Numbered from the stretch's first letter, positions 1 to 30,895 are shown. The stretch is 45,464 nucleotides of DNA from an uncultured delta proteobacterium (GCA_903870415.1 CAIQDA010000218.1:1-45464), one strand, 5' to 3'. A program made the numbers and translations. Notes: generated by a model from the letters alone, not told the origin.

Positions 1-1983
1 CTCCTCACGAGCGAGACCGTTCGCGAAGACGGTTCGAAAGCCGTCTCCTTTGCTCCGGACGCCATCCCGTGTCCCGTCATTGACTCGATTCGCGCCCGCG
101 AGGAGTTTGCGATTCGCGTTCCCGGCGAGCGCGACAAGAAGCATCGCGGATACGACTTCGAGTTCTATTCGGGCGAAGTCTTTTTTCTCTACGGGCAGTT
201 CGAGGAGGCACGCGTGCGCTTCGAGCCGCTCTGGCAAGCCCACTGCGGCAAGGACGATTACGGATTTCGCGCGTGGGTGAAGCTCATCACGATGAGCAAC
301 CTCGAGCGAAACCTCGACGCGTCCGAACTCCTTGCGAAGGCTGAAAAAGAACACTCGTGCGCGATGACGCCCGAGCAGGTTGCTCAGCGCGATCTCATCG
401 TGAATCCGACGCTCCAAGAGGCTTCTTTCGAGCGCGCTCGCGTGAAGTTCAAGGCCGCCGAGGCTGCGGATGCGGGGCCCGAGAAGCTGAAATTCTACCG
501 CGAGGCTGCGGCGCTTTACGAAGCTGCGCTTCAAGCTGCACCTGACCGTGACGAGGCACCCGAAGCCGCGATGAATGCGGCCTACGCCTACAAACAGGTC
601 GGGGAGTTTGCGCGCGCGATTGCGAGCTACGAGCGCTTCATCGCGGCATACGGCAACGAGGCGAAACTCGGTACGCTTCAACGAGGCGACGCCAAGGCCA
701 AGACCGCGCCGGACCCGAAGAAATACGGGGAGCGTATGAAGTCGCTTGGCGACGCGTACGACGCACTTTCGACGTCGTATTTCGGATTCTTCAACTTTCA
801 GCGGGCCGCGGAAACCCTCGAAAGCATCGCGAAGAACCTGCGATTCGACGAGGCAAAGCGCCGTGGCGCCGCACTCAACGCGGTTCGCCTCTACGGCTCG
901 CTCGGGCAGCGCCCCAAGGGCGAAGAGATGCGCAAGCTTCTCACGAACCTTCACCCGACGACCGAGGACCTGGCGTCATCCGAGTACTTGCTCGCGAGCC
1001 TCGAATTCAATCGCTGGGATCCGACCCTCCCCGACACGGGCGCGAACCGCGAGACACGCCTTGCCGCAGACCGCGACTTGACAGCGTATTACACCGCGAA
1101 GTTCAAGACTCCCGCCTCGGCGGAGTTCGCTCTTGAGTCCGCCTACCGCGTCGCGAAGATGAAGCGAGAGGCCGGCGATGCGGGTTTCCGCAAGTGGTAC
1201 GAAATCACGACCGACGCGTGGAAGCGTTTCCGCGGACAGAACGCCGACAAGGCCGGGAAAGCCCCGTTCGCGGACTACGCGGCCGAGGGTGAGTACTTCT
1301 TCCTCGACGAAGAGCTCGCGAAGAACTTCGACTACGAGGCTGGTCACCACCACTACAAGGGCTCGTCCGAGGACGTGAAGAAGACCTTCGAGAAGGAGCT
1401 CAAGGACGCGGTCAAGTACAACGAGCGCATCGCCAAGCTCATCGAGACTTACGCGTCACCGCAATGGGTGCCTGCATTCTACGCGCGTCGCGGATCGATC
1501 TTCGACGGGCTGCGCACGGGCCTCTACAACGCGGTGCCGCCAAACGTGAAGCTCCTCTCGCCGAAGGTCGAAAAGCTGCTCAAGACCCTCGAGGACAGCG
1601 GTCGCGACGACCTGCAAGAGAAGGCCGACGACTTGCGCGCTCAAGTCAAAGAAGCCTGGCGCACGTGGAAAGAGACGAACCTCACGCAAGCCGATGAGGG
1701 TGCCGTCGCCGACTACCTGCGTGCCGTGTCGTTCGCGAAGATGTTCGGCGTGCGCAACTCCGGTGTTCAAAAAGCCATCGCCCGTCTCGCGTATCTGTCC
1801 GTCGTCATTCCCGACTCGTCGAAGCTCAAGGGCTACGTCGAGAAGGTCAACGACCCGACCGACCCCGAAAAGAAGCGCACGTTCACCTACGAAGACGGCA
1901 TGTTCCAGCGTGCCCGCTCCGGTCTCTTTGCCCTCCCGCCGGCCACCGGTCGCGATGAGGCCCGTCCAGGGAGCTCGAACTGA
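1..1983 (+). CDS. TPR-repeat protein, 5' truncated (GltD/AgnA-like candidate)
   Basis: The reading frame is open from base 1 to the TGA at 1981-1983, so about 660 C-terminal residues are visible and the start lies upstream of the window. The product is rich in charged helical repeats of TPR type, for example the Ala/Glu-rich hairpins encoded around 490-650 and 740-840. No membrane segment is visible in this part. Its stop overlaps the start of the next gene (TGATG), which implies translational coupling. In Myxococcus the gliding (Glt) and spore-coat (Nfs) machines include a large TPR protein (GltD/NfsD) encoded just before a TPR lipoprotein (GltE/NfsE), and the same order is seen here. The TPR character is seen; the GltD assignment is inference from synteny, because TPR proteins are hard to assign by sequence alone. 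Confidence 0.8.
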   Translation, partial: LLTSETVREDGSKAVSFAPDAIPCPVIDSIRAREEFAIRVPGERDKKHRGYDFEFYSGEVFFLYGQFEEARVRFEPLWQAHCGKDDYGFRAWVKLITMSNLERNLDASELLAKAEKEHSCAMTPEQVAQRDLIVNPTLQEASFERARVKFKAAEAADAGPEKLKFYREAAALYEAALQAAPDRDEAPEAAMNAAYAYKQVGEFARAIASYERFIAAYGNEAKLGTLQRGDAKAKTAPDPKKYGERMKSLGDAYDALSTSYFGFFNFQRAAETLESIAKNLRFDEAKRRGAALNAVRLYGSLGQRPKGEEMRKLLTNLHPTTEDLASSEYLLASLEFNRWDPTLPDTGANRETRLAADRDLTAYYTAKFKTPASAEFALESAYRVAKMKREAGDAGFRKWYEITTDAWKRFRGQNADKAGKAPFADYAAEGEYFFLDEELAKNFDYEAGHHHYKGSSEDVKKTFEKELKDAVKYNERIAKLIETYASPQWVPAFYARRGSIFDGLRTGLYNAVPPNVKLLSPKVEKLLKTLEDSGRDDLQEKADDLRAQVKEAWRTWKETNLTQADEGAVADYLRAVSFAKMFGVRNSGVQKAIARLAYLSVVIPDSSKLKGYVEKVNDPTDPEKKRTFTYEDGMFQRARSGLFALPPATGRDEARPGSSN

Positions 1984-3284
1984 TGGCTCGTCCGATGAAC
2001 CTGGCACTTGCGCTCACGGCGTCGCTGATTGCGGCCTCGCTCGTGGGCTGTGCGGGAGCAACACCCGCCGCCGAAGTGCCCACAAACGCCCCCGCTGCAC
2101 CCGTGCAGAATGCAGCCAAGCCCGCGGCGAACGCGCCCGACGCGAAGGCCGCTGACGCGAAGCCAAAGGCCGCCGACACGGTCAAGCCCGTCGTCGTGTC
2201 GTTCGAAAAGAAGGTGCCGCTCGTGGGCTCCGCGCGAAGCTCGTTCGAAGGCGGGACCAAAGCGTTCTCGGAGGGACGCCTCACGGACGCGAAGGCGGCT
2301 TTCGACAAAGCTTCTCGCGAAGCGCCGAACAGCTCGGTGCCGCTCGTGGGCATGGGCGCTGTTCTCGAACGTCTCGGTGACTCGCCAGGGGCCATCGACG
2401 TTTACAAGCGGGCTACCGCTCTCGAACCCGACGACGCGGATGCCGCGCGGGCTTGGGTGCTTGTACTCTGCAGCAATGCCCGGACCGCTGAAGCCGTCGA
2501 GTTCGCGAAAGCGCGTGCTGAAAAGTTCGTGAAGTCTGCACCTGCCGCGACGCTTCATTCCGAGGCTGCGTCGATGAGCGGCGACAGCGCAACGGCCCAG
2601 GCCGAAGCCCAACGAGCTCTGTCGCTCGACTCGTCGTATGTTCCCGCGATGCTCGCGGTTGCGCGTGATCATTATCGTGCTGGTCGCGTATCGATGACGG
2701 CTTACGCCCTCAATGCGTTGCTCGACGGCATCGACGAAGCGACCCCGCCGCGGGCGAAAGACAACCCCGAAGCGCTTCTCCTTCGGGCGCTCATCGACAG
2801 GCGAACTCCAGGTCGACGAGCCCAAGCCCTCGAGGCTTTCGCGAAGGTGTTCGCGGCGCGTCCTGACTTGACCGAGGCCGCACTCGCGCTCGGCATCATG
2901 AAGCTCGAAGCGGGCAACGCGGAAGAGGCCATCGTGTCGCTTGAGACGGCGGCGCGCTTTGCCCCAAAGAATGCCTTCGTGGCCACGGCCCTCGGCGACG
3001 CGTACCGATTGGCAGGCCGCTACCCGGAGGCGAAAGTCGCGCTCGAAAAAGCGTTGACCCTCGACGGCACGCTCTCCGCTCCGCACTACAACCTGGCGCT
3101 CCTCTTTCTGTACGCCGGCGACAAAGCGGGCCTCGGCCCCGAAGAGCGTTACACGGCGTCGCAGCGCGAAATGGAAGCGTACCTTGGCATTCGCGGTCCG
3201 AAAGCGCCGCCCGGTGTCGACGACGATGCCGACTCACTCCTCGCAACCGCGAAGCAAAAACTCGCCGAGGTTGGATCCAAATGA
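1983..3284 (+). CDS. TPR lipoprotein (GltE/AglT-like candidate)
   Basis: 433 residues. An N-terminal signal with lipobox LVGC (Cys23) predicts a lipoprotein. An Ala/Pro/Lys-rich linker (about 24-66) follows, then a run of TPR-like helical hairpins from about residue 80 to 400. One clear unit near 290-365 reads as successive repeats with the usual small and aromatic spacing. The gene overlaps its upstream neighbour by TGATG and its downstream neighbour by ATGA, so it sits inside one transcription unit. In the Glt/Nfs systems of Myxococcus a TPR lipoprotein (GltE, also AglT) follows the large TPR protein and contributes to the periplasmic/outer-membrane part. The lipoprotein and TPR calls are firm; the GltE equivalence rests on gene order. 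Confidence 0.85.
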   Translation: MARPMNLALALTASLIAASLVGCAGATPAAEVPTNAPAAPVQNAAKPAANAPDAKAADAKPKAADTVKPVVVSFEKKVPLVGSARSSFEGGTKAFSEGRLTDAKAAFDKASREAPNSSVPLVGMGAVLERLGDSPGAIDVYKRATALEPDDADAARAWVLVLCSNARTAEAVEFAKARAEKFVKSAPAATLHSEAASMSGDSATAQAEAQRALSLDSSYVPAMLAVARDHYRAGRVSMTAYALNALLDGIDEATPPRAKDNPEALLLRALIDRRTPGRRAQALEAFAKVFAARPDLTEAALALGIMKLEAGNAEEAIVSLETAARFAPKNAFVATALGDAYRLAGRYPEAKVALEKALTLDGTLSAPHYNLALLFLYAGDKAGLGPEERYTASQREMEAYLGIRGPKAPPGVDDDADSLLATAKQKLAEVGSK

Positions 3285-3541
3285 GCTCTACGCGTATGGT
3301 TTCCACCCTGGCCGCGTTCGCCGTGTTCGCCTCGCTCGCGTTCGTGAGTTCCGCTGAGGCGCAGTCCAAAGGCGGTCGGGGCAACGTCGTGGTCGTGCGC
3401 GAAACCACGGTCATCGGTCGCGTGCAAAAGCCGGTTGCCGCCCAAGAAATCGGAAAGCTTCCGACGCGGCTCCAGTCGAGCGATCCGAAAAAGAGCTTCC
3501 TCGATCGCATCGAAGGCGCGACCGGCTCCTCCCCGTTCTGA
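3281..3541 (+). CDS. Small exported protein of the Glt-like block
   Basis: 86 residues. A signal peptide is followed by a likely cleavage after Ala-Glu-Ala (about residue 27). The mature part has a pattern that looks conserved by eye: VIGRVQKP, then Ala/Ile, then KKSFLDRIEGA, ending in Ser-Pro-Phe. The start overlaps the upstream stop by ATGA and the stop overlaps the downstream start by TGATG, so it is locked between the TPR lipoprotein and a small membrane protein and is surely translated. The mature protein is only about 59 residues, too small for an enzyme, so a periplasmic linker or assembly peptide is plausible. I recall similar short motifs in proteins encoded with AgmX/TonB-like genes, but cannot verify this. 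Function unknown. Confidence 0.8.
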   Translation: MSSTRMVSTLAAFAVFASLAFVSSAEAQSKGGRGNVVVVRETTVIGRVQKPVAAQEIGKLPTRLQSSDPKKSFLDRIEGATGSSPF

Positions 3542-4101
3542 TGGCGTCCCTCGCGGTGCTTGGGGTCATCCTCGTGACCGTGCTCACGCTCGCGATTCGA
3601 ATGTGCACGCAAGGGATTCTTCGACTCGACCTCGACCCGATCGTGCTTCGGCCAAATGCGAAGCACCTTCGCGCGGTTCTCGTCGAGCCGCTTGCTTATG
3701 CGTTCGAGCCGCTTCGCGAAGCTCTTGACTCAAACACCGAGCGCGCGCGCAACCTGTGGATGGCCGAAGCCGACAGCGCCCTCCATCACGAGCTCCGTCC
3801 GCTGAACGCAGAGCTTCGGGCGTGCGCGCGCGTATCGACGTCGGCAAGCTTCTGCGCCGCGGCGTGGGCGTTGCGCGTGGGGCTGGCGAGCCACACGGAA
3901 TCGGACGCGATGGCTCTCGACGGGCCCATCGGCCACGGGATCGCGTGCATCGCGCTGGGCTTCCTCGCGACGGGCGCCGTATCGTCCGTGCATCGACGTG
4001 TGGAATTGAGGTTGCGCGAGGAGCGCTCGGCGTGCGCCGCGATCTTGGAAGCCGTCGACGAAAAAGAAAACGCGCCCGACGCGACCGAATCTCGCGCCTG
4101 A
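3541..4101 (+). CDS. Small inner-membrane protein, topology reminiscent of TolQ/ExbB
   Basis: 186 residues. A hydrophobic segment lies at about 3-19, an amphipathic soluble region at about 25-95, a weaker hydrophobic stretch at about 100-115, and a clear one at about 126-146 followed by a charged, probably cytoplasmic tail. One early membrane helix, a soluble loop and two later helices resembles TolQ/ExbB/MotA proton-channel subunits, but the family's conserved TM2/TM3 positions are not evident. It lies directly upstream of a TonB-like protein gene, where a GltF-type or motor-associated membrane protein might be expected. Translationally coupled to the preceding gene (TGATG). Membrane protein is confident; the motor-like idea is weak inference. 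Confidence 0.7.
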   Translation: MASLAVLGVILVTVLTLAIRMCTQGILRLDLDPIVLRPNAKHLRAVLVEPLAYAFEPLREALDSNTERARNLWMAEADSALHHELRPLNAELRACARVSTSASFCAAAWALRVGLASHTESDAMALDGPIGHGIACIALGFLATGAVSSVHRRVELRLREERSACAAILEAVDEKENAPDATESRA

Positions 4102-4162
4102 CGCTGCTGTTGTTGTAGACTCACTCGCCTAACATACGTTGGATCGTTGGAGGAATACGGGC

Positions 4163-5590
4163 ATGTCGCAGCCTTCCGTAGGAGGTCAGAACTCTGGTCG
4201 TACAGGTCAGATGACCGCAGTCATGCGGGCCATCCAGACCCAAAACGGGCCCAAGGTGCTCCGGATAGGCATCGTCGCGAAAGGCGGACGAGTTATCGAG
4301 GAGCGCATCATCAAGCAGCGCGGCCCGGTGACCATCGGCACGAGCGAAAAGGCCACGTTCACCATCGGCTCGGACTTTCTCCCCGACCGCTTCACGCTCT
4401 TTGAGCTTTCCGGCAACGATTACGCGCTCAACTTCATCGACGGCATGTCGGGGCGCCTGGCGTTGTCGACGGGCATTTCGGACTTGTCGGCGCTTCGCGG
4501 TACCGCGAAGAAGAACGGCGCGATCTACCAGGTTCGCCTCACCGAAGACACGCGAGGGCGCGTGGTGGTCGGCGAGACGACGATCCTCTTTCAGTTCGTT
4601 ACGCCTCCGCCTCCGCAGCCGAAGCCTCAGATTCCGCTCTCCATTCAGGGCGGCCTCTCGAGCACCATCGACTGGAACCTCGCGATTATCGCAGCGTTCT
4701 CGTTCTTGCTTCACTTCGGATTTATCGGTGCAATGTACACCGATTGGTTCGATCCGGTGCACGACGAAGACGAGGCCTTCCAGGGCCTCCTCGAATCGGT
4801 GAAGAACATTCCGCAGCCTGTCGTTGAGCAGAAGGAAGAGAAGACCGAAGAGGACAAGGCCAAGAAGGAAGAGAAGAAGCCCGCGGAATCGAAGCAGGCG
4901 GCTCCTTCCAGCGCGGCGCCCAAGACTCCAGGCGGAGCGGGCAAGCCAAAGGTTTCCGACAAGCAAGCGGCGGCGCTTTCGGCTCAGGCTGACGCGCTCA
5001 TGACCGCGACGCTCGCAGCACTTGGCGGCACCGGTCCTACAGTGGCTGGCGCGTTGAAGGCTGGCGAAGTCCCCGGCGGAGACGTTTCCAAGCTTGCCGC
5101 GTCAAGCGCAGGCGCCCAAGCGGGTGCTGGCGGAGACTTGAAGCTCGGCACCGGAGGCGGCGGTCCCGTTCGTCCCGGCGGCGGTGGCGGTGGACTTGCG
5201 GGCATCGGTGGTGGTACCGGAGGTTCGGGTACCGGCGGTTCCGCGGGTGCGGTGGCGGTTGCCGGTCCTAAGGGCGACATTCAAATCGGCAAGGCGACGT
5301 CTTCCGTACAAATCGATAACCTCGAAGCGACGGTTAACAAGCTGAAGCCAGGCTATCGCCAATGTTACAACAAGGGCCTCGAGCAGGACCCCTCCATGAG
5401 CGGGCGTGCCGTTTTCGTGGCAAACGTTGGTCCTAACGGCGAAGTAGCCGGGGTCGATGTTCGCGAAAACTCCGGCCTAAGTGACTTCGTTTTGGAGTGT
5501 ATCAAAAAGAAGATCCGAAACGCGGAATTTGCACCGCCAGGCGGTGGTGGTACAGCCGTTCAACTGCCCGTTAACTTCATCAAACAGTGA
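4163..5590 (+). CDS. FHA-like/TonB-like trans-envelope protein with AgmX/PglI C-terminal domain (GltG-like)
   Basis: ATG 4163 is chosen because GGAGG (4149-4153) lies 9 nt upstream; an in-frame TTG at 4139 lacks such a site. The product is 475 residues. A cytoplasmic N-terminal beta-rich domain (about 33-148) resembles an FHA fold. One membrane helix spans about 171-191. A Glu/Lys-rich stretch (200-245), an Ala-rich region and a Gly-rich linker (316-360) follow, and a TonB-like C-terminal domain (about 378-475) contains Cys401 in RQCYNKGL and Cys446 in LECIKKK, as in the AgmX/PglI C-terminal family. GltG of Myxococcus has the same order (FHA, TM, TonB-like domain) and links inner-membrane energy to the envelope. 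The FHA-like domain lacks the usual Gly-Arg and Ser-x-x-His, so phosphothreonine binding is doubtful. Architecture firm; the GltG name is homology by memory. Confidence 0.85.
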   Translation: MSQPSVGGQNSGRTGQMTAVMRAIQTQNGPKVLRIGIVAKGGRVIEERIIKQRGPVTIGTSEKATFTIGSDFLPDRFTLFELSGNDYALNFIDGMSGRLALSTGISDLSALRGTAKKNGAIYQVRLTEDTRGRVVVGETTILFQFVTPPPPQPKPQIPLSIQGGLSSTIDWNLAIIAAFSFLLHFGFIGAMYTDWFDPVHDEDEAFQGLLESVKNIPQPVVEQKEEKTEEDKAKKEEKKPAESKQAAPSSAAPKTPGGAGKPKVSDKQAAALSAQADALMTATLAALGGTGPTVAGALKAGEVPGGDVSKLAASSAGAQAGAGGDLKLGTGGGGPVRPGGGGGGLAGIGGGTGGSGTGGSAGAVAVAGPKGDIQIGKATSSVQIDNLEATVNKLKPGYRQCYNKGLEQDPSMSGRAVFVANVGPNGEVAGVDVRENSGLSDFVLECIKKKIRNAEFAPPGGGGTAVQLPVNFIKQ

Positions 5591-5653
5591 CCCGCTCAAT
5601 CAACGATTGACGATTTCTGTTCGACCTACGATACTGACGTTTAGAGGTCTCCT

Positions 5654-6316
5654 ATGCGTTCTCGAACTTGGCTCTTTGTTGTCGCTCTTGGCGCGCTTCC
5701 CATCGGCTCTGCGCTCGCGCAGAGTGACATGCAGCGTGACAACGGTGCCCCACAGCCCACATGCGTAGAGGGTGGCGCCGAGCTTTTTGCGAAGGCCGAC
5801 GCCGTCGTCGAACGCTTGCAGAGTGCAGTGACTTCGATTCAGCGTCAGCTCGACGTCGCACGCTCGCAGCGTGACGTCGTAAAGGTGCTTTTTCTCAGCG
5901 AAAAGCTGTCGCAGGCGAACGCGTCGCTTCGGTCCGCCGTTGAACGCCGCGCGTCCGTGAAGGCGGCAATCGAGCGTGGGGACTGCGCTTCGGCAAAGCA
6001 GGACGCCGAAGTGCTCACCATCATTGGCGAGCGCGGCGACGAGTATCTGAACGCGACCAGCCAAGCCGTTGGCGAGGGCACGCGCATGCAGGAGCAGGCC
6101 ACGGTCAACATCGTGACCGACCCCGGTACGCCAACCACGATCCAGACGTCTGAGTACCCCGCGGTTGACCCGCTCACGGGAGCGGCGGACTCGAACGGGC
6201 GACAGTCTTCAAGTCAGGTCGGCGGAACGCCCTCCGGCACCGCTGATGCGCCGACAACCAATCCAAACGTTTTGCCAACGTCGCCGGTGATTCCGGTTTC
6301 GACGTCAGCGAAGTAG
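5654..6316 (+). CDS. Periplasmic coiled-coil protein of the Glt-like block
   Basis: 220 residues. AGAGG (5643-5647) precedes ATG 5654. A signal peptide ends at Ala-Leu-Ala (about residue 22). A probable alpha-helical coiled-coil region spans about 45-110, with Cys37 before it and Cys117 after it, possibly disulfide-bonded. The C-terminal 70 residues are Ser/Thr/Pro/Gly-rich and look disordered. I do not recognise the family. It lies between the GltG-like gene (63-nt gap) and an outer-membrane barrel gene (about 40-nt gap), in the same direction, which suggests a periplasmic or outer-membrane-associated part of the same apparatus. Confidence 0.75.
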   Translation: MRSRTWLFVVALGALPIGSALAQSDMQRDNGAPQPTCVEGGAELFAKADAVVERLQSAVTSIQRQLDVARSQRDVVKVLFLSEKLSQANASLRSAVERRASVKAAIERGDCASAKQDAEVLTIIGERGDEYLNATSQAVGEGTRMQEQATVNIVTDPGTPTTIQTSEYPAVDPLTGAADSNGRQSSSQVGGTPSGTADAPTTNPNVLPTSPVIPVSTSAK

Positions 6317-6355
6317 CCGGTGGAGTTGGGGGCAACTTTGGTTATCGAGATGAAC

Positions 6356-7729
6356 ATGCGTCGAACAATTGGGGTGGCGAGCTTTCTCGCCTTGCTTATT
6401 CCGGCTAACGCGCACGCGCAGGCATGGCTGAAGGACCGGGCCGCTTCGGAGGGTTCCGGCATCAAAACCGGCAATCTCGAGGTTCACCCGGGAATCGGCA
6501 CGGAAGTCGGTTACGACTCCAACTGGTTTCTCCGGTCGTCGTCAACGGACCGCCTCGTTCTCAACGGCGAGGTCAACGGCCTTCCCGTCGTCGGCCTTCC
6601 TGTTCTGCGCATTACGCCGTCCATCTCGCTCAGCACGCTTTCTGGCGATCGCATCGGCGGCATCCCCGGCGACCCGCCCAAGTTCAAATTCCGCGTTTCG
6701 GGCGCTGCGACCTACCGCGAGTACCTCTCGGGTGATTGGAGCAACCAGCGAAACGTCGCCGGCGCATTGAACGCCGATCTCCAAATCGCTCCGCAGCAGC
6801 CGTTTGGCGGGGTTATCGGAGCGAGTTACCTGCGCACGGTCAACGCCACGGCCAGCGGCGATCCGAACCTTGCGTTCGTGCGAAACGACGTGTTGGCGAA
6901 CGGCGAGCTCGTTTACAGCCCGGGCGGCGGAACCCTTGAGTTTCGCGCAGGTTACCGCGGCCGTTTCACGCTTTTCGACAACAATGCGAGCTCCAACCAG
7001 ACCGAGCACACGGGCACCGCTCGCGCCCGCTGGCTGTTTCGTCCCCGAAACGCGTTGTTTCTCGACGCCGCCTACGGCGTGCTTGGGTATTCGACCAACA
7101 CGGCGGACACGCGCGACCTCGCGCCTCTCCGCGTCAAGCTCGGCACGTCGGGACTTCTGACGCCGCGCATTGGCATCCTTCTCGCGGGCGGCTACGGCTC
7201 TTCCGGCGTTCAGGACGGTCCAGGTCGGACTCCGAGCGATTTCGCGAGTGTTATCGGTCAGGCCGAAGTTCGCTATTTCTTCGACGCCGCGGCGTTGCCC
7301 GACTCCGCAAGCTCCGACGGCGCATCGACGAACGTACTCGCGGTCGGCCTCCTTCGTGACTTCCAGCCGAGCATGCTCGGTAGCGTTTTCTCGATGACCC
7401 GCGGTTACGCACGCGCAACCTACCTTTGGCAAGGCAAGGTGTTTACGTCGATCGAAGGCGGCGTGAGCAGCATCGCCTACAACGCGCTCACGTTCACGAG
7501 CGGTGCGAGCGCCGGGCAAACCCGCGCAGACGCCTTCTCGAACATCCGACCGGATGTCACCGCTTTCGGTGAGTACCGCCTGTCGAACGCGCTCGGGATC
7601 AACGCGACGTTGAAGTACTCGTCGAACTCAAGCGACCGCGGTTTGAAGCAAGACCTCACGAGCGGCAGTTACGTGGACCTCAACTGGACGCGGTTCGAGG
7701 CCTTTGCAGGCGTTCGTTACGCGCTCTGA
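6356..7729 (+). CDS. Outer-membrane beta-barrel protein (GltH-like position)
   Basis: ATG 6356 is preferred: GAG lies 6 nt upstream and the following residues form a clean signal peptide with cleavage after Ala-His-Ala. ATG 6350 and GTG 6320 are in-frame alternatives. The mature protein of about 435 residues shows alternating polar/hydrophobic strands, many Gly/Tyr/Arg pairs (for example FRAGYRGRFTLF) and ends in Tyr-Ala-Leu, all typical of outer-membrane barrels. Repeated strand-turn units such as YGVLGYSTN and LLAGGYGSSG recur along the chain. In Myxococcus the gltG neighbourhood encodes an outer-membrane protein, GltH, so this may be its counterpart. Barrel call by pattern; orthology is inferred. 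Confidence 0.8.
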   Translation: MRRTIGVASFLALLIPANAHAQAWLKDRAASEGSGIKTGNLEVHPGIGTEVGYDSNWFLRSSSTDRLVLNGEVNGLPVVGLPVLRITPSISLSTLSGDRIGGIPGDPPKFKFRVSGAATYREYLSGDWSNQRNVAGALNADLQIAPQQPFGGVIGASYLRTVNATASGDPNLAFVRNDVLANGELVYSPGGGTLEFRAGYRGRFTLFDNNASSNQTEHTGTARARWLFRPRNALFLDAAYGVLGYSTNTADTRDLAPLRVKLGTSGLLTPRIGILLAGGYGSSGVQDGPGRTPSDFASVIGQAEVRYFFDAAALPDSASSDGASTNVLAVGLLRDFQPSMLGSVFSMTRGYARATYLWQGKVFTSIEGGVSSIAYNALTFTSGASAGQTRADAFSNIRPDVTAFGEYRLSNALGINATLKYSSNSSDRGLKQDLTSGSYVDLNWTRFEAFAGVRYAL

Positions 7730-7739
7730 GGCCGTTTCC

Positions 7740-8339
7740 ATGATGTTGCGCCGTTGGCCCCTCGCGTTGGGGCTCGCGTTGATGCTCGGCGCGTGCACAA
7801 GGCACAACGCGTCGCGAGTTTCCGTGTTGCCGCCCAACGAGACCAGCACGACTCTCGGTGCGGGAGACGTCTTTCTGATGTCGATCGTCGGAGAGAAAGA
7901 TCTGCCGAACGAGTTTCGTGTGCAGCCGGACGGCAGCGTCGACTTTCCGTACGTGAAGCGCATGAAAGTGGCCGGTCTTGAGCCGCAAGAAGTTGTCGAC
8001 GTTGTTCGTCAAAGACTGATTGAAGAGCGCATCTACACCGATCCGCAAGTTTCGTTGTTTATCAAGCAGTACAACTCGAAGAAGGTCAACGTTCTCGGGC
8101 AGGTTGCGAAGCCTGGTACGCTTTCGTGGACGGACGGAATGCGTCTCGTTGAAGTTATTTCGCAAGCCGGCGGATTCACCGCGATTGCGGATCGCGACAA
8201 CGTCGTCCTCATGCGGGTCGATCGAACCGGGCACGTGGTCACCGTGAGTCTGAGCGTCGACGACATCACCGAGGGCCGCGAGCCGAACCCGATGTTGCAG
8301 GCGGGCGATACGGTGCGCGTGGACCAGCGTTCGTTCTGA
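7740..8339 (+). CDS. Wza-type polysaccharide export lipoprotein
   Basis: GAGG (7728-7731), overlapping the upstream stop, sits 8 nt before ATG 7740. The product is 199 residues, with lipobox LGAC (Cys19), a polysaccharide export (Poly_export) domain from about 36 to 115 (GDVFLMSIVGEKDLPNEF, then QPDGSVDFPYV) and one SLBB domain at about 118-180 (KVNVLGQVAKPG ... SQAGGFT). Wza-family proteins form outer-membrane or periplasmic channels for capsule and exopolysaccharide; at about 200 residues this is the short form lacking the C-terminal helix of E. coli Wza. It starts 10 nt after the barrel gene, so it is the last gene of the Glt-like block, tying that machine to a glycan. No polysaccharide co-polymerase or flippase gene lies nearby. 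Confidence 0.92.
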   Translation: MMLRRWPLALGLALMLGACTRHNASRVSVLPPNETSTTLGAGDVFLMSIVGEKDLPNEFRVQPDGSVDFPYVKRMKVAGLEPQEVVDVVRQRLIEERIYTDPQVSLFIKQYNSKKVNVLGQVAKPGTLSWTDGMRLVEVISQAGGFTAIADRDNVVLMRVDRTGHVVTVSLSVDDITEGREPNPMLQAGDTVRVDQRSF

Positions 8340-8367
8340 CCGCGCGCTCCGAACGGGGCGAATTGCT

Positions 8368-8390
8368 GCGTTGGCGCAACGCGTTAGTTT
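8368..8390 (+). terminator. Weak hairpin after the Glt-like/Wza block
   Basis: GCGTT (8368-8372) and AACGC (8378-8382) form a 5-bp stem with loop GGCGC. The sequence GTTAGTTT follows. It lies about 30 nt after the wza-like stop. The stem is short and the T tract interrupted, so this is only a candidate. Confidence 0.3.
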
Positions 8391-8428
8391 GTGTTGCTTC
8401 CCGTCGGCCACCGCGTCAAGATGGGCGG

Positions 8429-9079
8429 ATGTCTCGACTTTATCACTTCCCCACGTCGCCTTTTTCCGCGCGCGTGCGCATTGCCCTTGGGATGAAGAGT
8501 GTCCCGGTCGAACTCGTCGACTGCCGTGCGGATGGGGCCAGGCTCGCACAGGCCAGGCAGCTTGCGCCCACGGGCACCATTCCGGTGCTCGTCGCGGGTG
8601 ACGGTCAGGTTCTGGTCGATTCGGTCTCCATTTGCCGCTGGCTCGACGCGTCTTTTCCGTCGCCGCGCCTCTTTCCGGTCGGGCCTTCGGAGCTTTCCAC
8701 AACGTTGCGTGTCTGCGATCATGTCGACGCCGTTCTCAACGTCGTTGTGGATCTCGGCACCCGTTCGTTCGCCTTGCGCGATTCGGCGGGATGGGACGCG
8801 TTCGTCGCGGAACGTCTCGGTCGAGCGCATCAGACCCTCGACAAGCTTTCGGAGGATCTGGCGGCGCTCGGTCGTCCGACGATTGGGCCGGACGGGATCA
8901 ACGCGGCGGACATCTGGGTCGCGACGATGGTTCGTTGGTACGAAAATCTTCCCGGCCGCGCGCCGACGACGCCCGCAGCGGCGCAAATTCTCACGTTGGG
9001 TTGGCGGATTCCCGAGCCGATTCTGGCGTTCGCCGCACCGATTCACGCGCACCCCGTCCTCAAGCGCTGGGGCCTCTAA
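8429..9079 (+). CDS. Glutathione S-transferase-like protein
   Basis: 216 residues from ATG 8429. This start places the thioredoxin-fold N-terminus (MSRLYHFPTSPFSARV) at the protein start; longer in-frame starts add an unlikely Arg-rich leader. The N-terminal fold reads beta-alpha-beta with the cis-Pro region GTIPVLV, then DSVSICRWLD, which matches the GST N-terminal glutathione-binding motif. The all-helical C-terminal domain includes the INAADIWVATM motif equivalent to the family's conserved Asp. It may act in glutathione conjugation or reduction of an electrophile; the substrate is not predictable. It stands alone, between the Wza-like gene and a convergent exporter operon. Family call confident. 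Confidence 0.85.
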   Translation: MSRLYHFPTSPFSARVRIALGMKSVPVELVDCRADGARLAQARQLAPTGTIPVLVAGDGQVLVDSVSICRWLDASFPSPRLFPVGPSELSTTLRVCDHVDAVLNVVVDLGTRSFALRDSAGWDAFVAERLGRAHQTLDKLSEDLAALGRPTIGPDGINAADIWVATMVRWYENLPGRAPTTPAAAQILTLGWRIPEPILAFAAPIHAHPVLKRWGL

Positions 9080-9204: not shown

Positions 9205-10305
9205 TCAGGGTTTCGTCGAGATGTAGCCCGTCACGCGCTCGCCAGGGACGAGCGGTTTGGTGTCTTCGAGCTGAAGCACGACCTCGAGGATCTTCGTGTC
9301 GATGCGCTCGTTCGGATCATCCGTTCGGATGTTCTTTCGACCCATGCGTCGGCCGATTTCGAGGACCTTGGCTTTGAACTTCTGATCGCGGAAAGCCTCG
9401 GTCGTGACGAGGGCGCCGGCCCCAACTTTCACGCGGCCGATGTCACGCTCGTCGAGGTCGACGCGCACGCGGAGCGAACGGGTGTCGCCGAGGATGAGGA
9501 GCGGGTCGGCGAGGACGTTGTAATATTCGCCGGCGCGGGCCTTCACCTGGAGGATCTCACCGGCTTGCGGGGCCTGCACGGTGAGGCGGTCGACTTGTGC
9601 TTGCGCTTGTTCACGGTGCGCACGCGCGAGTTCCAAGCGAGCTTTTGCGGCGAGCACGTCTTCCGCTCGCGAGCCTGCGAGGGCGGCGCGACGACGGGCG
9701 TCGGACGCGCGGGCAAGAGACTCGTCGCTTGCGGCGTTCTGGCGGGCGCGGTCGAGTTCGTCGACGGACACGCCTCCTGATTTGTTCAACGCCTCCAAGC
9801 GTTGCAGCGACGTCTTTGAAAGGTCGGCGCGTGCCCGGCTTGAGTTCGCTTCATCAATGGCGGCGTCGATGTCTTCGCGACGCAGGCCGTGGCTCACGCG
9901 CTCGTACTCGGCTTGTGCGGCTTGCACCTCGGCTTCGGTCGCACGAAGGGCTGCGCGCTCGACCATGGATTCGAGCTCCACGAGAGGGGCGCCCGTCTCG
10001 ACGAAATCGCCCTCTTTCACGAGGATGCGCGCGATGCGGCCAGGTTGCGCGGCGGCGACGCGAATTTCGCGGCCGTTCGGTTCGACGATGCCATTGCCCG
10101 CGACGTAATCGCCATCGGGTGCGACGGGACCGCGCTCGTCTTTTCCGCCGCTCATCGGCACGGCATCACGCTTGGCCTTCTCGACGTCCGACGCGCGCGC
10201 GATGTTGGGTGGACCGTCGGCAACGCCACGAAGGATCACACCGAAGAGCGTGAGGGCCCCGAACACGAGGCCGACGTGGATAGGGCGGATGCGGCGAGCA
10301 CTCAT
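9205..10305 (-). CDS. ABC exporter membrane fusion protein (HlyD/DevB family)
   Basis: 366 residues. A signal-anchor helix lies at about 10-28. A first biotinyl-lipoyl half (about 75-113, with VKEGDFVETGAPL), a long Arg/Ala/Glu-rich alpha-helical hairpin (about 115-238), a second lipoyl half (about 240-275, with APQAGEILQVKARAGE) and a beta-barrel domain follow. This is the adaptor joining an inner-membrane ABC transporter to a TolC channel. It overlaps the ATPase gene by 4 nt and is the last gene of a TolC-permease-ATPase-adaptor operon. The arrangement matches DevBCA/MacAB-type exporters of glycolipids, peptides, siderophores or drugs. Substrate unknown. Confidence 0.92.
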   Translation of the reverse strand: MSARRIRPIHVGLVFGALTLFGVILRGVADGPPNIARASDVEKAKRDAVPMSGGKDERGPVAPDGDYVAGNGIVEPNGREIRVAAAQPGRIARILVKEGDFVETGAPLVELESMVERAALRATEAEVQAAQAEYERVSHGLRREDIDAAIDEANSSRARADLSKTSLQRLEALNKSGGVSVDELDRARQNAASDESLARASDARRRAALAGSRAEDVLAAKARLELARAHREQAQAQVDRLTVQAPQAGEILQVKARAGEYYNVLADPLLILGDTRSLRVRVDLDERDIGRVKVGAGALVTTEAFRDQKFKAKVLEIGRRMGRKNIRTDDPNERIDTKILEVVLQLEDTKPLVPGERVTGYISTKP

Positions 10306-11018
10306 GGGTGGCTGTCTTTCTTCTCGTCGATGATGAGGCCGTCTTCGATGTGAACGATGCGATCGGCGAAGTGATAAATGCGGTTGTCGTGGGTCACGGT
10401 GATGACCGTGTGGCCGCGCTTTTTAGCGATGTTGTGCAGGACTTCGGTGACGAGCTGCCCTGTTTGCGCGTCGAGGCTCGCGGTGGGTTCGTCGGCGAGG
10501 ACGATGGGCGGATTGCCGGCGATGCAGCGTGCGATCGACACGCGCTGACGTTGCCCGCCGCTGAGGTCCGCCGGAAGGCTCTCAATCTTATCGCTGAGCT
10601 CCACGAGCGAGAGCAGTCGCGCGGCTTCCTTCTTCGCGTCGATAGAGTTCCATCCGCGGAGCGCGAGCATGATGGCGACGTTCTCTTGCGCCGACATCGA
10701 CGCGATGAGGTTGTGGCCTTGGAAGATGAACCCGATGTACGCGAGGCGCAGCTTCGGCAGGTCCGACTCGGGCGCTGCGGTGATGACATCGTCGAGGACG
10801 CGCACGTGCCCCGCGGTTGCGGAAAGTACGCAGCCAAGAATGGAAATGAGCGTCGTTTTTCCGCTTCCGCTTGGGCCGGAGAGAATGACGAACTCGCCCT
10901 CGTCCGCGTGAAAGTCGACGCCCTTCAACGCCCGAAATGCGGTGGCGCCATCGCCGTAATCTTTCACGACGCCCGTCGCTTCGACGACGCGCTTGGGTTT
11001 CGAAACGGACCCGATCAT
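10302..11018 (-). CDS. ABC exporter ATPase (MacB/LolD/DevA type)
   Basis: 238 residues. Walker A is GPSGSGKT (48-55), the Q-loop is in GFIFQGHNL (about 97), the ABC signature is LSGGQ (152-156) and Walker B is IVLADE (172-177), followed by PTASLD and the switch His in VTHD. All catalytic elements are intact. It resembles the ATPases of the MacB/LolD/DevA group, which drive mechanotransmission rather than substrate passage through the membrane. It overlaps the permease gene by 4 nt upstream and the membrane fusion gene by 4 nt downstream. Confidence 0.95.
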   Translation of the reverse strand: MIGSVSKPKRVVEATGVVKDYGDGATAFRALKGVDFHADEGEFVILSGPSGSGKTTLISILGCVLSATAGHVRVLDDVITAAPESDLPKLRLAYIGFIFQGHNLIASMSAQENVAIMLALRGWNSIDAKKEAARLLSLVELSDKIESLPADLSGGQRQRVSIARCIAGNPPIVLADEPTASLDAQTGQLVTEVLHNIAKKRGHTVITVTHDNRIYHFADRIVHIEDGLIIDEKKDSHP

Positions 11019-12235
11019 CGGAACACCATTCCCGGTTCGACTTTACGCAGACGCAGGAGCGCGAGCGCCGAAGCGGCCACACACATGCCGATCATGATGA
11101 ACGTTGTTCCGACGAGCATCTGCGTGGGCAGGAGTACGCCGAGTTTGGGAGACCGGATGGCGGCCGCGATGCGCGTGATGGCGGCGAGCCCAATGAGCGA
11201 GCCCATGAGCGCGAACGTGATCGATTGCGTGATCACGATCTTCGCCAAGTCTCCGTTCGTGGCGCCGATCGCTTTCAGGGTGCCGAACTCGCGGATGTTG
11301 TCGACGACGGCGGAGAACATCGACAACGAGACGATGACGAATCCGACGATGAGCGCGAAGACCGTGGAGGTTCCGAAGGTGATTCCGATCGGCGTGCGGC
11401 GCAAAAGGAACGACACGATCATGCTGCGAAACTCCTCGCGTCCGACGACCTTCACCTCGGGTGCGCGTTCCATGATCGCCTTCTTCACGGCCTCGGGGTT
11501 CGCGCCGGGTTCAAGGCCGATGAGCACGAAGTGCGTTTGGTCCGAGTCGATCTTGAGCATGCGTCGCGCGAGCTCGTATTCGGCGAACGCGAACGACGGA
11601 CCGAAGGGCAGAAGCCCCCAGGTGATGCCGCCGACGTTCACTTTGAAGCCGTTCACTTCGCGGATGCTTCCAACGTTGAGCCCGCCGAGTCGCTCGCGTT
11701 CCGAGTCTTCAAAGATCATCGTGTTGGGACGCTCGAGGGCGCTCTTCGAGCCCGCGACGACGTTCCAAGGTCCGCCCGCGTAACGTGGTGCGGCGGTGCC
11801 GACGAACTGAATTGGCTCGGTGCCGCCCGCGGGAAGTTGAATCGATGCGCCGCCGTAGAGGAGGGGCTCGGCCCACGCGACGCCCTTCGTGGAACGCGCC
11901 GTGTACAGCGCCGAGATGCCCATGGGCTTCGTGGCCTGGAGCGTGAGCGTCGACGGCGAAACGATCCACAAGTCGGCGCCCGAGTAGTCCACGAACATCG
12001 TGTTCTTCTTGATGAGCCCGAGAAACGTGCCCGCTTGCTGGTTCGAGAGCACGACGGCGAACACGACGCCGATCAGCGTGCCGGCCATCTTCAGCTTGTT
12101 GTGGAACATCATGCGCCAGGCGATGGTCACCATCATGCGCCAGCGGATGCCGCTCGGTGCGTAGGCCTTGGTGGGGGTGATGTGCGTTTCGCTGCTCGCG
12201 AGCGCGCCGTCGAGGGGGGCCGTGTCGGTGCTCAT
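11015..12235 (-). CDS. FtsX/MacB-type ABC permease (DevC-like)
   Basis: 406 residues. One N-terminal membrane helix (about 45-66), a large periplasmic domain (about 70-275) and three C-terminal helices (about 282-306, 333-357 and 370-395) form the standard FtsX/MacB topology. The motif REFGTLKAIGATNGDL before the third helix is the family's coupling-helix region. It partners the downstream ATPase and, through the fusion protein, the upstream TolC-like protein. It overlaps both neighbours by 4 nt. Confidence 0.93.
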   Translation of the reverse strand: MSTDTAPLDGALASSETHITPTKAYAPSGIRWRMMVTIAWRMMFHNKLKMAGTLIGVVFAVVLSNQQAGTFLGLIKKNTMFVDYSGADLWIVSPSTLTLQATKPMGISALYTARSTKGVAWAEPLLYGGASIQLPAGGTEPIQFVGTAAPRYAGGPWNVVAGSKSALERPNTMIFEDSERERLGGLNVGSIREVNGFKVNVGGITWGLLPFGPSFAFAEYELARRMLKIDSDQTHFVLIGLEPGANPEAVKKAIMERAPEVKVVGREEFRSMIVSFLLRRTPIGITFGTSTVFALIVGFVIVSLSMFSAVVDNIREFGTLKAIGATNGDLAKIVITQSITFALMGSLIGLAAITRIAAAIRSPKLGVLLPTQMLVGTTFIMIGMCVAASALALLRLRKVEPGMVFR

Positions 12236-13548
12236 CGGTTCGTCTCTTTGGTCGAGGTTGCCGCGAGGGTCTCACCGGAAGCAGACCGGAGCCATACGCG
12301 GGCATACGCGAGATCGGCATCGGCTTGAATACGGCTTACGGTGGCGTCGAACGCGTCGCGGTCCGCTTGGACGACCTCAAGTTGCGTGGCGCGTCCTTGC
12401 GTGTATCGCTCATGGGCAAGGCGCGCAGCCTCGTCCGTTGCGTCGACTTGCGAACGCGAAGCGCGTGCCTTCGCTGTGAGCGACTCGACCTGGGCCCATG
12501 CCTGAAACACTTGGTCTTTTGCAGCGCGCATCGCTCGTTCTCGGCGCACAGAGGCCGCGGTCTCGGCGGCTTCGAGCGACTTGACGCCTGCCCACGCCCC
12601 CGCATCGAGACGCCACGTTGCCGTAACGCCCGCCGCGTAGACTTGGCTTTGGCCCGCAAAGCCGGTCGCGTTCGTGAAGCGCTCGGTGAAGTTCGCAGCC
12701 AGGCTCGGTGCAAGGGCACCCCACGCGGCGTTCACATTCGCGTGCGCACCTTTCTCGTCACTCTCGGCGGCGAGCACGGAGGGAAGCGACGTTGTCTTCT
12801 CCTCGAACGCGCGCACGGGAGCTTCGGCGTGAAGGTCATCGGAGAGCGACGGAGCGCCCTCGGCCGGCGTGACCGTCGTCAGCGTTTCGAGATTGCGGCG
12901 GGTGACGACGAGGATGTATTTTGCATCAGCGGCTTGCTGCTTTGCGCGCTCAACTTCGGCGCTCGCGCGACGCACGTCGAGGTCGGTTGCGAGGCCTGCC
13001 GATTGGCGGTTCACGACAAGTTCGTGGTTTTGAAGGGCGACGCGCAACGACTTGTCCGTCGCCTGCAGGAGTGCCTCACCACCGATGACGCTGAAGTACG
13101 CGCGCGCCACTTGCTTGTCGAGCTCAAGCCCGGTCTGCACGCCGCGTTTCACCGTGGCCGCTTCTGCGTGTTTGGCGGCGCTCACGAGCCCCCACTTTGA
13201 AAGGTCCACGAGCGGAACGTCGAGCACGAGGAACGCGTCGAACTGATCTTCGGGAATGATCGTGATGGTGCGTGCGGCGGCTCCGGTCGACGGGTTCGCG
13301 GGGACGAGCGACGACGCGGGGTATTGGTTTCGCGTGTAAGCTGCACGCGTCGTCAACGTAGGAATCAGTGCCGACCACGCGCGGGTGGTTTCTTCGGCGT
13401 GCTGCCGCTCCGTGGCCGTTGCCTCGCGCGCATCGAAGGACGACTTTCGCGCGGCGTCGACGAAGTGCTCAAGGGGCTGAAGGGCATGGGCGGCCGAGGC
13501 GAAAAGAAGCAGCAGGCCAGCGCTACGGAAGATGACGGGAATGCGCAT
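12232..13548 (-). CDS. TolC-family outer membrane efflux protein
   Basis: 438 residues. A signal peptide ends after Ala-His-Ala (about residue 22). Two tandem OEP repeats of long amphipathic helices follow, with the typical segments NQYPASSLV (strand region), VARAYFSVIGGEALLQA and, in the second half, AWAQVESLTAKARASR plus ARLAHERYTQGRATQLEVVQ. The last is the classic TolC-family motif preceding the second coiled coil. First gene of the exporter operon; the overlap with the permease start is 4 nt. It provides the outer-membrane exit channel. Confidence 0.93.
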   Translation of the reverse strand: MRIPVIFRSAGLLLLFASAAHALQPLEHFVDAARKSSFDAREATATERQHAEETTRAWSALIPTLTTRAAYTRNQYPASSLVPANPSTGAAARTITIIPEDQFDAFLVLDVPLVDLSKWGLVSAAKHAEAATVKRGVQTGLELDKQVARAYFSVIGGEALLQATDKSLRVALQNHELVVNRQSAGLATDLDVRRASAEVERAKQQAADAKYILVVTRRNLETLTTVTPAEGAPSLSDDLHAEAPVRAFEEKTTSLPSVLAAESDEKGAHANVNAAWGALAPSLAANFTERFTNATGFAGQSQVYAAGVTATWRLDAGAWAGVKSLEAAETAASVRRERAMRAAKDQVFQAWAQVESLTAKARASRSQVDATDEAARLAHERYTQGRATQLEVVQADRDAFDATVSRIQADADLAYARVWLRSASGETLAATSTKETNR

Positions 13549-13890: not shown

Positions 13891-15078
13891 ATGACCCAGT
13901 CTGCGATCCGTAAGTCTCTCTCGGCCTTTGCCCTCGTTGCGGTTTCGTTCTCGGCCGAGCGCCTCGCCCACGCGGACGACGTCGTCGCCGCGGCCCCCGC
14001 AGGTCCCGAAGTGAAAATCAGCGGGTGGATCGAGACCTATTACCTCTCGAACTTCAACGGCCCTTCGAACGGCATCAACTCCGTGAGGGCTTTCGACTTC
14101 CACGATGGCTTCAACCTGCAGAATGCAGCGGTCGACGTGGACATCAAGAAGGGGGCTGACTCCCTCAAGGTGACGCTTCAATCCGGCAACCTTGGCGTCA
14201 ACACGTACGACCCGCTCGAACCCGGCTCTCACGGCACCGCGTACACCGCCGCGACGGGCCCGAGCACGCTCCGCTATGTGCAACAGGCCTATGCGACGCA
14301 CGCGTTCGAGAATGGGCTCACGGTCACCGGAGGCCTCTTCGCGACACCGGTGGGCTTCGAGGGCTACAACGTCAAAGACAACTGGAACTGGTCGCGCGCC
14401 AATACGTTCTATATGCTTACGTATTACCACGTAGGTGCTAAGGCTGCGTACTCGCTGTCAAAGGAGTTCACGGCCACGGCTTACGTGATGAACGGCTGGA
14501 ACAACGGCTTTGAAACGAACGCGACTCCGAGTGGCGCGGCGCAGATTTCCTACGACAATGGTGCTGGGACGACGGCGAGCCTCGTCTACCTCGTCGGCAA
14601 CGAGCGCAAGCGAAGCGATGCAGCGGACTTCGGCAAGCCTCTGCGCCACCTCGTCGACGCCTGGGTCAGCGTTCCGGTCAACGACACGCTCTCGCTCGGT
14701 CTCCACGGCGACGTGGGCATGGAGAAGAACAAGAAAGGTGACTACTCGTGGCTTGCGGCCGCGGCGTACGCACGGGCCAAAGTTGCCTCGTGGGCTTACC
14801 TCGCCGCGCGCGCGGACTACTTCAAGGAGTCCATGGGCGACGCGACTTCGCCGATCTTCTTCCTCTCCGCGAACGGGACGAAGGCCATCGGGTCGGGCAC
14901 GTTGACGCTCGACCTGCGTCCGACAGAGAGCACGAGCTTTCGCCTCGAAGCGCGCCACGACGTGGCCGACGGCGAGGTGTTCTTCAAAGGCACCGTGGCC
15001 CAAGACTCGCTCGGCAACGACGTGTTCAACGCGAAGAACCAGACGACGTTGACCCTCGGCATGAACACCGTCTTCTGA
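13891..15078 (+). CDS. Outer-membrane beta-barrel porin (BBP2-like)
   Basis: ATG 13891 is fixed by a perfect AGGAGG (13881-13886) with 4-nt spacing; an in-frame start at 13786 would add 35 Arg-rich residues and bury the signal peptide. 395 residues. The signal ends near Ala-His-Ala (about 29). The mature start VKISGWIETYYLSNFN is typical of proteobacterial barrel proteins of the BBP2/OmpL47-like group. Strands such as LTVTGGLFATPVGFEGYN and TSFRLEARHDVADG alternate along the chain, and it ends in an aromatic (MNTVF), the usual BAM recognition feature. Probably a channel for small solutes; substrate unknown. A strong terminator follows, so it is monocistronic. Confidence 0.85.
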   Translation: MTQSAIRKSLSAFALVAVSFSAERLAHADDVVAAAPAGPEVKISGWIETYYLSNFNGPSNGINSVRAFDFHDGFNLQNAAVDVDIKKGADSLKVTLQSGNLGVNTYDPLEPGSHGTAYTAATGPSTLRYVQQAYATHAFENGLTVTGGLFATPVGFEGYNVKDNWNWSRANTFYMLTYYHVGAKAAYSLSKEFTATAYVMNGWNNGFETNATPSGAAQISYDNGAGTTASLVYLVGNERKRSDAADFGKPLRHLVDAWVSVPVNDTLSLGLHGDVGMEKNKKGDYSWLAAAAYARAKVASWAYLAARADYFKESMGDATSPIFFLSANGTKAIGSGTLTLDLRPTESTSFRLEARHDVADGEVFFKGTVAQDSLGNDVFNAKNQTTLTLGMNTVF

Positions 15079-25794: not shown

Positions 25795-26706
25795 TCAGAG
25801 CTCGTCGAAGCGAAACGCAACCACGTCGTTGATCGACGAAAGTCCGAGGGCGAGGGCCACGAGCCGGTCGAGGCCAACGGCGTTTCCCGCGCACGGAGGC
25901 AGGCCTTTTTCCAGGGCGGCGATGAAGCGCTCGTCGATCGGGTAGACGTCCTTGGCGAAGCGTCGTCGATCGTCCGCGTCTTTCACGAGACGGCGCCTTT
26001 GCTCACCGGGGTCGGTCAGTTCGCCGAAGCCGTTGCAGAGTTCGACGCCGGCGACCCAGAGCTCGAAGCGTTCCGCAAAGCGCGCGTCGTCAGGGCAGGG
26101 GCGCGCGAGCGACGCTTGCTCGATCGGGTAACGGTGCACGAGAAGCGGTCGATCGATCCGCGCGAGAGCGGGTTCCACGGTCTCGACGAGGACGCGATAA
26201 AAGCGATCTTCGTCGTGGGCAGCCCAGTGCAAAACCTCGTCGACGGAAACGTGTGCAAACTGCACAAAGGCGTCCACGATGCTCACGCGCTCGAAGGGCG
26301 GAAGCATGGGAATGCGGCGGTCGCCAAGGCGCACGAGGCCGCCGGTTACGCGGGAAACGAGCTGTTCCGTGTCGGCGATCACGTCGTCGATGCTGCCCGG
26401 CGCGCGGTACCATTCGAGCATCGTGAACTCGGGGTTGTGACGCTCGCCGAACTCGCCCGCACGAAAGACGCGACTCACTTGGTGAATGCGCCGATGCCCC
26501 TCTGCGAGCAGGCGCTTCATTTGGTATTCCGGGCTCGTGGCCAGGTAGAGTTCGCGCGCGCCCGAGAGACGAAACGCGTCGAGATGCAGGTCACTTCCCG
26601 GCGAGGGAACCGCGATCGGCGTCTCGACTTCGAGGAAGCCGCGAGAGTCGAAGAACGCGCGCGCTTCGCGAACGATTCGGGCGCGATCGACGAGACGTTT
26701 GCTCAT
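25795..26706 (-). CDS. epmA: EF-P lysine ligase-like protein EpmA (GenX/PoxA)
   Basis: 303 residues, the length of EpmA, which is a lysyl-tRNA synthetase catalytic core without the anticodon domain. Class II motifs are visible: motif 1 near FLEVETPIAVPSPGSD, motif 2 VSRVFRAGEFGERHNPEF, then TMLEWYRAP, and motif 3 GLDRLVALALG. Also typical is HLDAFRLSGARELYLATSPEYQMKR-like sequence at about 40-65. EpmA activates lysine or beta-lysine and ligates it to a lysine of elongation factor P. Neither EF-P nor EpmB (the lysine aminomutase) lies in the window. It overlaps the TetR gene by ATGA, so both are co-transcribed. Confidence 0.92.
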   Translation of the reverse strand: MSKRLVDRARIVREARAFFDSRGFLEVETPIAVPSPGSDLHLDAFRLSGARELYLATSPEYQMKRLLAEGHRRIHQVSRVFRAGEFGERHNPEFTMLEWYRAPGSIDDVIADTEQLVSRVTGGLVRLGDRRIPMLPPFERVSIVDAFVQFAHVSVDEVLHWAAHDEDRFYRVLVETVEPALARIDRPLLVHRYPIEQASLARPCPDDARFAERFELWVAGVELCNGFGELTDPGEQRRRLVKDADDRRRFAKDVYPIDERFIAALEKGLPPCAGNAVGLDRLVALALGLSSINDVVAFRFDEL

Positions 26707-28513: not shown

Positions 28514-28582
28514 TTCAGCGAAGAGTGCGTTGCTGAAGAACACGCTGGTCACCCGCCTAGCGCGTACGTAACCTCGGTCCTT

Positions 28583-28600
28583 GGACGATTTGTTTCGTCC
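28583..28600 (+). promoter_or_regulatory. Leader hairpin before the CheA-like kinase
   Basis: GGACGA (28583-28588), loop TTTGTT and TCGTCC (28595-28600) form a perfect 6-bp hairpin, 22 nt upstream of ATG 28623. No T tract follows, so it is not a typical terminator. It may protect mRNA or affect ribosome access. Confidence 0.35.
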
Positions 28601-28622
28601 GGGTCATCGAGGAGCGGGCGCT

Positions 28623-30833: not shown

Positions 30834-30895
30834 AGCTTGCTCGTTCACGGCTGCCGCGAGAGAGTGCCGAAGGCCTGAGCCTGAGAGTGGAGCCG

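Follow-up and report, generated by a model that had tools for sequence, protein, structure and literature searches.

A Glt-related trans-envelope gene cluster joined to a putative polysaccharide export port in an uncultured delta proteobacterium

The stretch of DNA analysed here (the window, 45,464 nucleotides) is the whole of contig C218 (CAIQDA010000218.1) from a 4.69-Mb draft genome of an uncultured delta proteobacterium (GCA_903870415.1; 511 contigs, 98% complete). Its positions 1-8339 hold eight genes in which relatives of the Glt proteins are joined to an outer-membrane polysaccharide export (OPX) lipoprotein and a predicted beta-barrel. It appears fairly probable that this operon encodes a second, non-gliding, proton-driven trans-envelope machine of the Agl-Glt/Nfs class, dedicated to a surface polysaccharide that is exported via the OPX/barrel port of the same operon. 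The inference that we favour for its action is that it moves or anchors a surface glycan.

Results

Gene content of the operon

The eight genes lie on the same strand (+) as open frames with a codon-position G+C of the coding type, and they overlap or almost abut in an operon-like manner. They are real genes of one operon, which is truncated at base 1. Since base 1 is the contig end, the first gene (D) is a fragment and at least two further genes of the operon (C and B0) lie off the contig. The fragment encodes the C-terminal 660 aa of a protein of about 1,475 aa. In a close relative of the same genus (L046), where the full-length orthologue has 1,475 aa, two further genes come before it, encoding B0, a 286-aa protein of the exported type, and C, a TPR protein of 811 aa. 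The end of the block was set at 8339 because the GST gene at 8363-9079 is not found at that place in relatives. The domains named in an earlier, sequence-only reading were confirmed, with TPR repeats in genes 1 and 2, an AgmX/PglI C-terminal domain and GltG similarity in gene 5, and Poly_export and SLBB domains in gene 8. The genes are as follows.

1..1983 (+): D, GltD-like TPR protein, C-terminal 660 aa (L046 orthologue, profile match)
1983..3284 (+): E, GltE-like TPR lipoprotein (TPR matches, NCBIfam GltE, profile match)
3281..3541 (+): F, small exported protein (86 aa) at the GltF position (N-terminal hydrophobic segment, conserved position)
3541..4101 (+): X, divergent AglR/TolQ/ExbB-family membrane protein (AglR profile, via intermediates)
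4139..5590 (+), likely start at about 4163: G, GltG-like inner-membrane force transducer (NCBIfam GltG, transmembrane segment, tree)
5654..6316 (+): Y, exported coiled-coil-type protein of the port unit (located with H and Z)
6320..7729 (+): H, predicted outer-membrane beta-barrel, proposed pore partner of Z (amphipathic-strand peaks)
7740..8339 (+), likely start at about 7740: Z, short OPX lipoprotein (Poly_export and SLBB) of the D1D2 type (Pfam and PDB matches)

Conservation of the gene order

Loci around the orthologue of gene 5 (G) were taken from most of 57 genomes of Polyangiales and scanned with profiles made from the proteins of the cluster. Some of the searched loci contributed to these profiles; for their members the E-values therefore lack independence, which does not affect the gene order. 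The full order in relatives is B0-C-D-E-F-X-G-Y-H-Z on one strand. It is kept in dozens of Polyangiales genomes, and more divergent versions occur in other classes of Myxococcota. C, D and E were found in 39 of the 40 loci with at least 8 kb upstream of G, and F in 36 of them. Downstream, among the 39 loci with at least 4.5 kb, Y was present in 30, H in 32 and Z in 30. B0 (250-290 aa, exported-type, no Pfam family; 14024-14884 (-) in L046) directly precedes C in 22 of the searched loci and is probably part of the operon, though it lies off the contig of the window. The block is thus more than a chance adjacency, since its order recurs across Polyangiales and other classes. The coupling to a Wza-family gene that the sequence-only reading had pointed out is a conserved link.

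Relationship of the core to the Glt proteins

Window-type families were compared with the canonical glt families of the same order by profile-profile comparison (hhalign); the homology of C was assessed on its off-contig orthologues. C scored 99.7% and G 99.9%, E reached 99.9%, a kind of value that TPR repeats inflate, and D matched the canonical GltD type at 98.6% (E = 6e-16). Unrelated family pairs stayed below 4%. E also showed Pfam TPR matches and a match to the NCBIfam GltE model that was under its cut-off (5.6e-06). The match of F to canonical F was weak (72%, E = 3e-5). Judged from these profiles, C, D, E and G are homologous to GltC, GltD, GltE and GltG. The proposed common origin with Glt/Nfs thus stands for these four proteins, and the TonB-like and TPR proteins do resemble Glt families; it is not supported for the barrel as a GltH.

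Protein G consists of an FHA-like N-terminal domain, a single transmembrane helix at residues 181-199 and a TonB-like C-terminal domain, and its tail matched the AgmX/PglI C-terminal domain of NCBIfam above the cut-off. It gave 102.5 bits with the NCBIfam GltG model, over model positions 198-638, against a cut-off of 650. In a quick tree, G proteins of the window type and of motor-containing operons formed one clade apart from canonical GltG, with 100% support in the Shimodaira-Hasegawa-like approximate likelihood ratio test (SH-aLRT). Naming this protein a GltG was ruled out by the score below the equivalog cut-off and the separate clade. The same genomes carry a separate canonical cluster, C-D-E-F-G-TPR-GltI-like, with a full-length GltG; in the genome of the window it was seen only as fragments on C377 and possibly C154. 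No GltI/J-type gene was found in the window-type cluster by NCBIfam or by profile searches of the loci. The profile homology, the separate G clade and the canonical cluster elsewhere indicate together that the window cluster is an old paralogue of glt. The match to a glt machine suggested from the sequence alone thus held for the homologous core, and the cluster itself is not glt.

Two further relatives of this family were observed. The same genome contains a 602-aa frame resembling the C-terminal half of GltG (L001, G000:C5:19509-20057; 119.5 bits). A third cluster type, in L114 (G054:C35:292000-311900), has the order C-D-E-F-G, preceded by the genes of two exported proteins, and its G has 450 aa; this cluster is nearer to the window type than to canonical glt and is possibly Nfs-like.

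The export port: Y, H and Z

Z gave a Pfam Poly_export match (1e-16) followed by SLBB, these domains ending at residue 206 of 211, and it matched Wza and other OPX chains in the PDB. Its sequence has an LGAC lipobox and stops right after SLBB, with no C-terminal helix domain of the Wza kind. H directly precedes Z, and this adjacency is kept in relatives. H showed 17 conserved amphipathic-strand peaks, compared to 9.0 +/- 2.6 after column shuffling, on a home-made score. Comparison of its profile with PDB sequences gave no meaningful match. Y has no Pfam or NCBIfam family and travels with H and Z, even when these are apart from G (L309).

It had been suggested that the barrel occupies the slot of GltH. 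This assignment was dropped: H adjoins Z, travels in a Y-H-Z unit that stands on its own in L309, and has 469 aa compared to the published 209 aa of GltH (PMC3169522), a separation made without direct sequence comparison. The D1D2-OPX proteins EpsY, ExoA and WzaB each adjoin the gene of an 18-stranded barrel (PMC9601211, PMC9603273). By analogy with these pairs, the most fitting reading of H and Z is a polysaccharide translocon of the D1D2 OPX/beta-barrel type, and not a GltH plus a Wza.

Outside Polyangiales, a Wzc-type polysaccharide co-polymerase (PCP) follows Z in L317, L319 and L320, the assignment in L319 resting on the sequence start only. A PCP also lies near Z in L316 and L318, and a Wzy_C gene comes after Z in L313. 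The genome of the window contains three Poly_export proteins and one Wzz-family PCP, the latter on another contig.

X and the AglRQS-type motors

The small membrane protein X had been taken for an envelope part of the Glt/Nfs type. X of the window has no Pfam match, and two clear transmembrane segments were seen by hydropathy. An AglR profile built without X found the X proteins of several Polyangiales families (E from 2e-14 to 5e-3), most of which in the families outside the branch of the window have the three-helix layout of TolQ/ExbB. By hhalign, X of the other families matched AglR at 98.8% and X of the window's own branch matched X of the other families at 95%; the direct match of this branch to AglR was weak (48%, E = 2e-4). 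Through these intermediates X is identified as a divergent AglR protein of the TolQ/ExbB family. The alternative of an unrelated small protein was dropped, given the AglR profile matches at the same place.

In other lineages F and G are separated by an AglR/MotA-type gene followed by two ExbD-type genes (L310-L312, from genomes G188, G129 and G063, and L318, L321, L322 and L324); those of L311 were confirmed by Pfam. In Polyangiales only X is found there, and no ExbD gene was detected in the operon loci examined. As an observation on the operonic ExbD pair, one subunit has Asn (MNM/MNL) at the expected proton-binding Asp (L310, 5337-6005; L318, 1290-2105). The second keeps the Asp, as do both type-2 ExbD subunits of the genome of the window.

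In Polyangiales, two divergent triplets of the AglRQS type lie next to each other. In the genome of the window both are on C494, near mreB, so that the motor which the sequence-only reading had proposed to look for is present. In the AglR tree, type 1 groups with GltG-linked AglR (100%), type 2 is a separate clade (96%) and operonic AglR is a third; X is drawn to type 2 on a very long branch. The label L285_531 in this tree is a type-2 sequence marked as type 1, which also affects the two clade tests made on it.

Joint loss of the operon and the type-2 motor

In two of the 57 Polyangiales genomes (G026 and G055), window-type G, H and type-2 AglR are all missing, and type-1 AglR and canonical GltG are kept. 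In G026 the type-1 triplet stands in its mreB context and the type-2 triplet is missing in between (L331 vs L333, L334). Other genomes of that genus retain at least one of the two, the operon or type 2. In G338, type 2 was present with no G found (14 of 114 candidates scored). The joint loss supports type 2 as the motor of the window-type machine, short of proof.

Other genes on the contig

An ABC exporter unit with an HlyD-type adaptor, an ATPase, an FtsX/MacB permease and an outer-membrane efflux protein was found at 9205-13548 (-). At 28581-34128, a sensor kinase (HAMP/Hpt/HATPase), a YfiR/HmsC-like protein and a TonB-dependent receptor lie on one strand, possibly as a receptor-linked signalling unit. 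A stand-alone class II tRNA-synthetase-like protein of 303 aa is encoded at 25795-26706 (-), which we take to be in the style of EpmA/GenX.

Discussion

AglR binds both GltG and NfsG in M. xanthus (PMC3858216). Together with the homology described above, this makes it probable that the type-2 AglRQS motor drives G. We propose a mechanism in which an inner-membrane proton channel of the AglRQS type, most likely the type-2 triplet on C494, would act on the transmembrane helix of G, with X perhaps as an extra AglR-like subunit. From the TonB-like periplasmic end of G, force would reach C, D and E, the TPR proteins, and the small F. These would contact the outer-membrane Y-H-Z port or act on its polymer, with Z lining the periplasmic side of the port and H forming the pore. 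The motor may then move, spread or help to extrude the polymer, presumably a polysaccharide. Besides the joint loss, this reading is supported by the homology of C, D, E and G to canonical glt families, the conserved gene order, the complete motor genes between F and G in other lineages, the PCP at or near Z in several loci, the pairing of a short OPX protein with a neighbouring predicted barrel as in EpsY/EpsX, and the M. xanthus findings on AglR and Nfs.

The same genes may instead form a passive scaffold, in which C-D-E-F-G with X only bridges the wide periplasm and links the inner-membrane co-polymerase to the short OPX/barrel port with no proton-driven force. In its favour, the Polyangiales operon has kept X as its sole AglR-family protein, in a strongly diverged form and with no ExbD gene in the loci examined, and a short OPX protein does not reach across the whole periplasm. 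However, other lineages hold complete motor genes at the place of X, G retains its transmembrane helix and TonB-like end, and a second AglRQS triplet is retained in nearly all of these genomes, which makes an unpowered bridge improbable.

Several observations weigh against the proton-driven polysaccharide machine. Y-H-Z is not beside G in L058, L059, L241, L252, L257 and L263, and the unit stands alone elsewhere in genome G012 (L309), from which L059 also comes. C-D-E-F-X-G without an adjoining Y-H-Z in some genomes means that the two modules are separable. The fold of H is unproven, a single-sequence AlphaFold model being unusable (predicted local confidence, pLDDT, 31.5), and the window genes that were scanned included none of a sugar-polymer pathway. 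The joint loss of the operon and type 2 is a single evolutionary event in two small genomes. G010, G046 and G301 have G and no type-2 match, perhaps owing to contig breaks; the type-1 gene is within about 1.2 kb of a contig end in G010 and G301. Finally, the AglR tree gives no origin of type 2 from the operonic motor, as the order of the three clades is unresolved and the branches are long.

The separation of the modules in L058, L059 and L309 would also suit a case of shared transcription only, with Y-H-Z as an ordinary OPX/barrel port that is co-expressed with a Glt-type machine for another cargo. We give this little credence, since many families and several classes retain the two modules in joint order, and the Nfs machine of M. 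xanthus acts on an OPX-exported polymer. That the cluster is itself a gliding-motility machine, as its homology to GltC, D, E and G and to AglRQS could suggest, is very unlikely, because no GltI/J-type gene was found in it and these genomes have, besides it, a glt cluster of the canonical type and a type-1 AglRQS whose clade falls together with AglR linked to GltG.

A dedicated polysaccharide machine has its closest parallels in three known systems. Export of the spore-coat polymer in M. xanthus depends on the Wza homologue ExoA; Nfs moves this polymer and acts after its export (PMC3858216). Like Nfs, the window cluster keeps relatives of C, D, E and G in one cluster and the same relative order, an AglRQS-type motor is encoded elsewhere, and the M. 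xanthus machine serves an OPX-exported polysaccharide. Unlike in M. xanthus, where the OPX and barrel genes are in a separate exo locus, they lie inside the operon here; X and Y are extra, and no NfsA/B-type barrel pair was identified, in a comparison made without Nfs sequences. The core set is also that of Agl-Glt and of the aglRQS + gltCDEG core complex described in 2011 by Luciano et al., with function unknown (PMC3169522), and in other lineages the motor is in the operon, as in the published core. The differences are that G of the window falls in a paralogue clade, that GltI/J are missing and that the core is joined to an export port. With the D1D2-OPX translocons EpsY/EpsX, ExoA/ExoB and WzaB/WzpB the cluster shares a short Poly_export + SLBB lipoprotein beside a predicted barrel gene, and a PCP near Z in some genomes. 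It differs from them in its link to a motor/transducer module, in having no link to a biosynthesis cluster in the genome of the window, and in a barrel that is predicted.

No report of this core joined to an OPX/barrel pair was found in the literature searched; a 2015 article on a capsule origin was outside that search and may mention related clusters. In that article Agrebi et al. reportedly proposed that gliding evolved from capsule assembly. The gene linkage found here supports and fits the proposal that gliding machines derive from capsule assembly systems, and the operon suggests, without proving it, that such machines first served the export or movement of surface polysaccharide. More tentatively, the ancestral Agl-Glt machine may have been a proton-driven polysaccharide exporter, a single complex whose AglRQS motor worked an OPX/barrel port via G, so that a glycan was extruded or reeled out; gliding and spore-coat rotation would then be later uses, with the port shed.

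An operon that joins the core to an export port, with the motor inside it in some lineages, offers a direct test of the function of this core. Many short OPX proteins are without an assigned pathway (PMC9601211), and the machine proposed here would be a possible energised partner for them.

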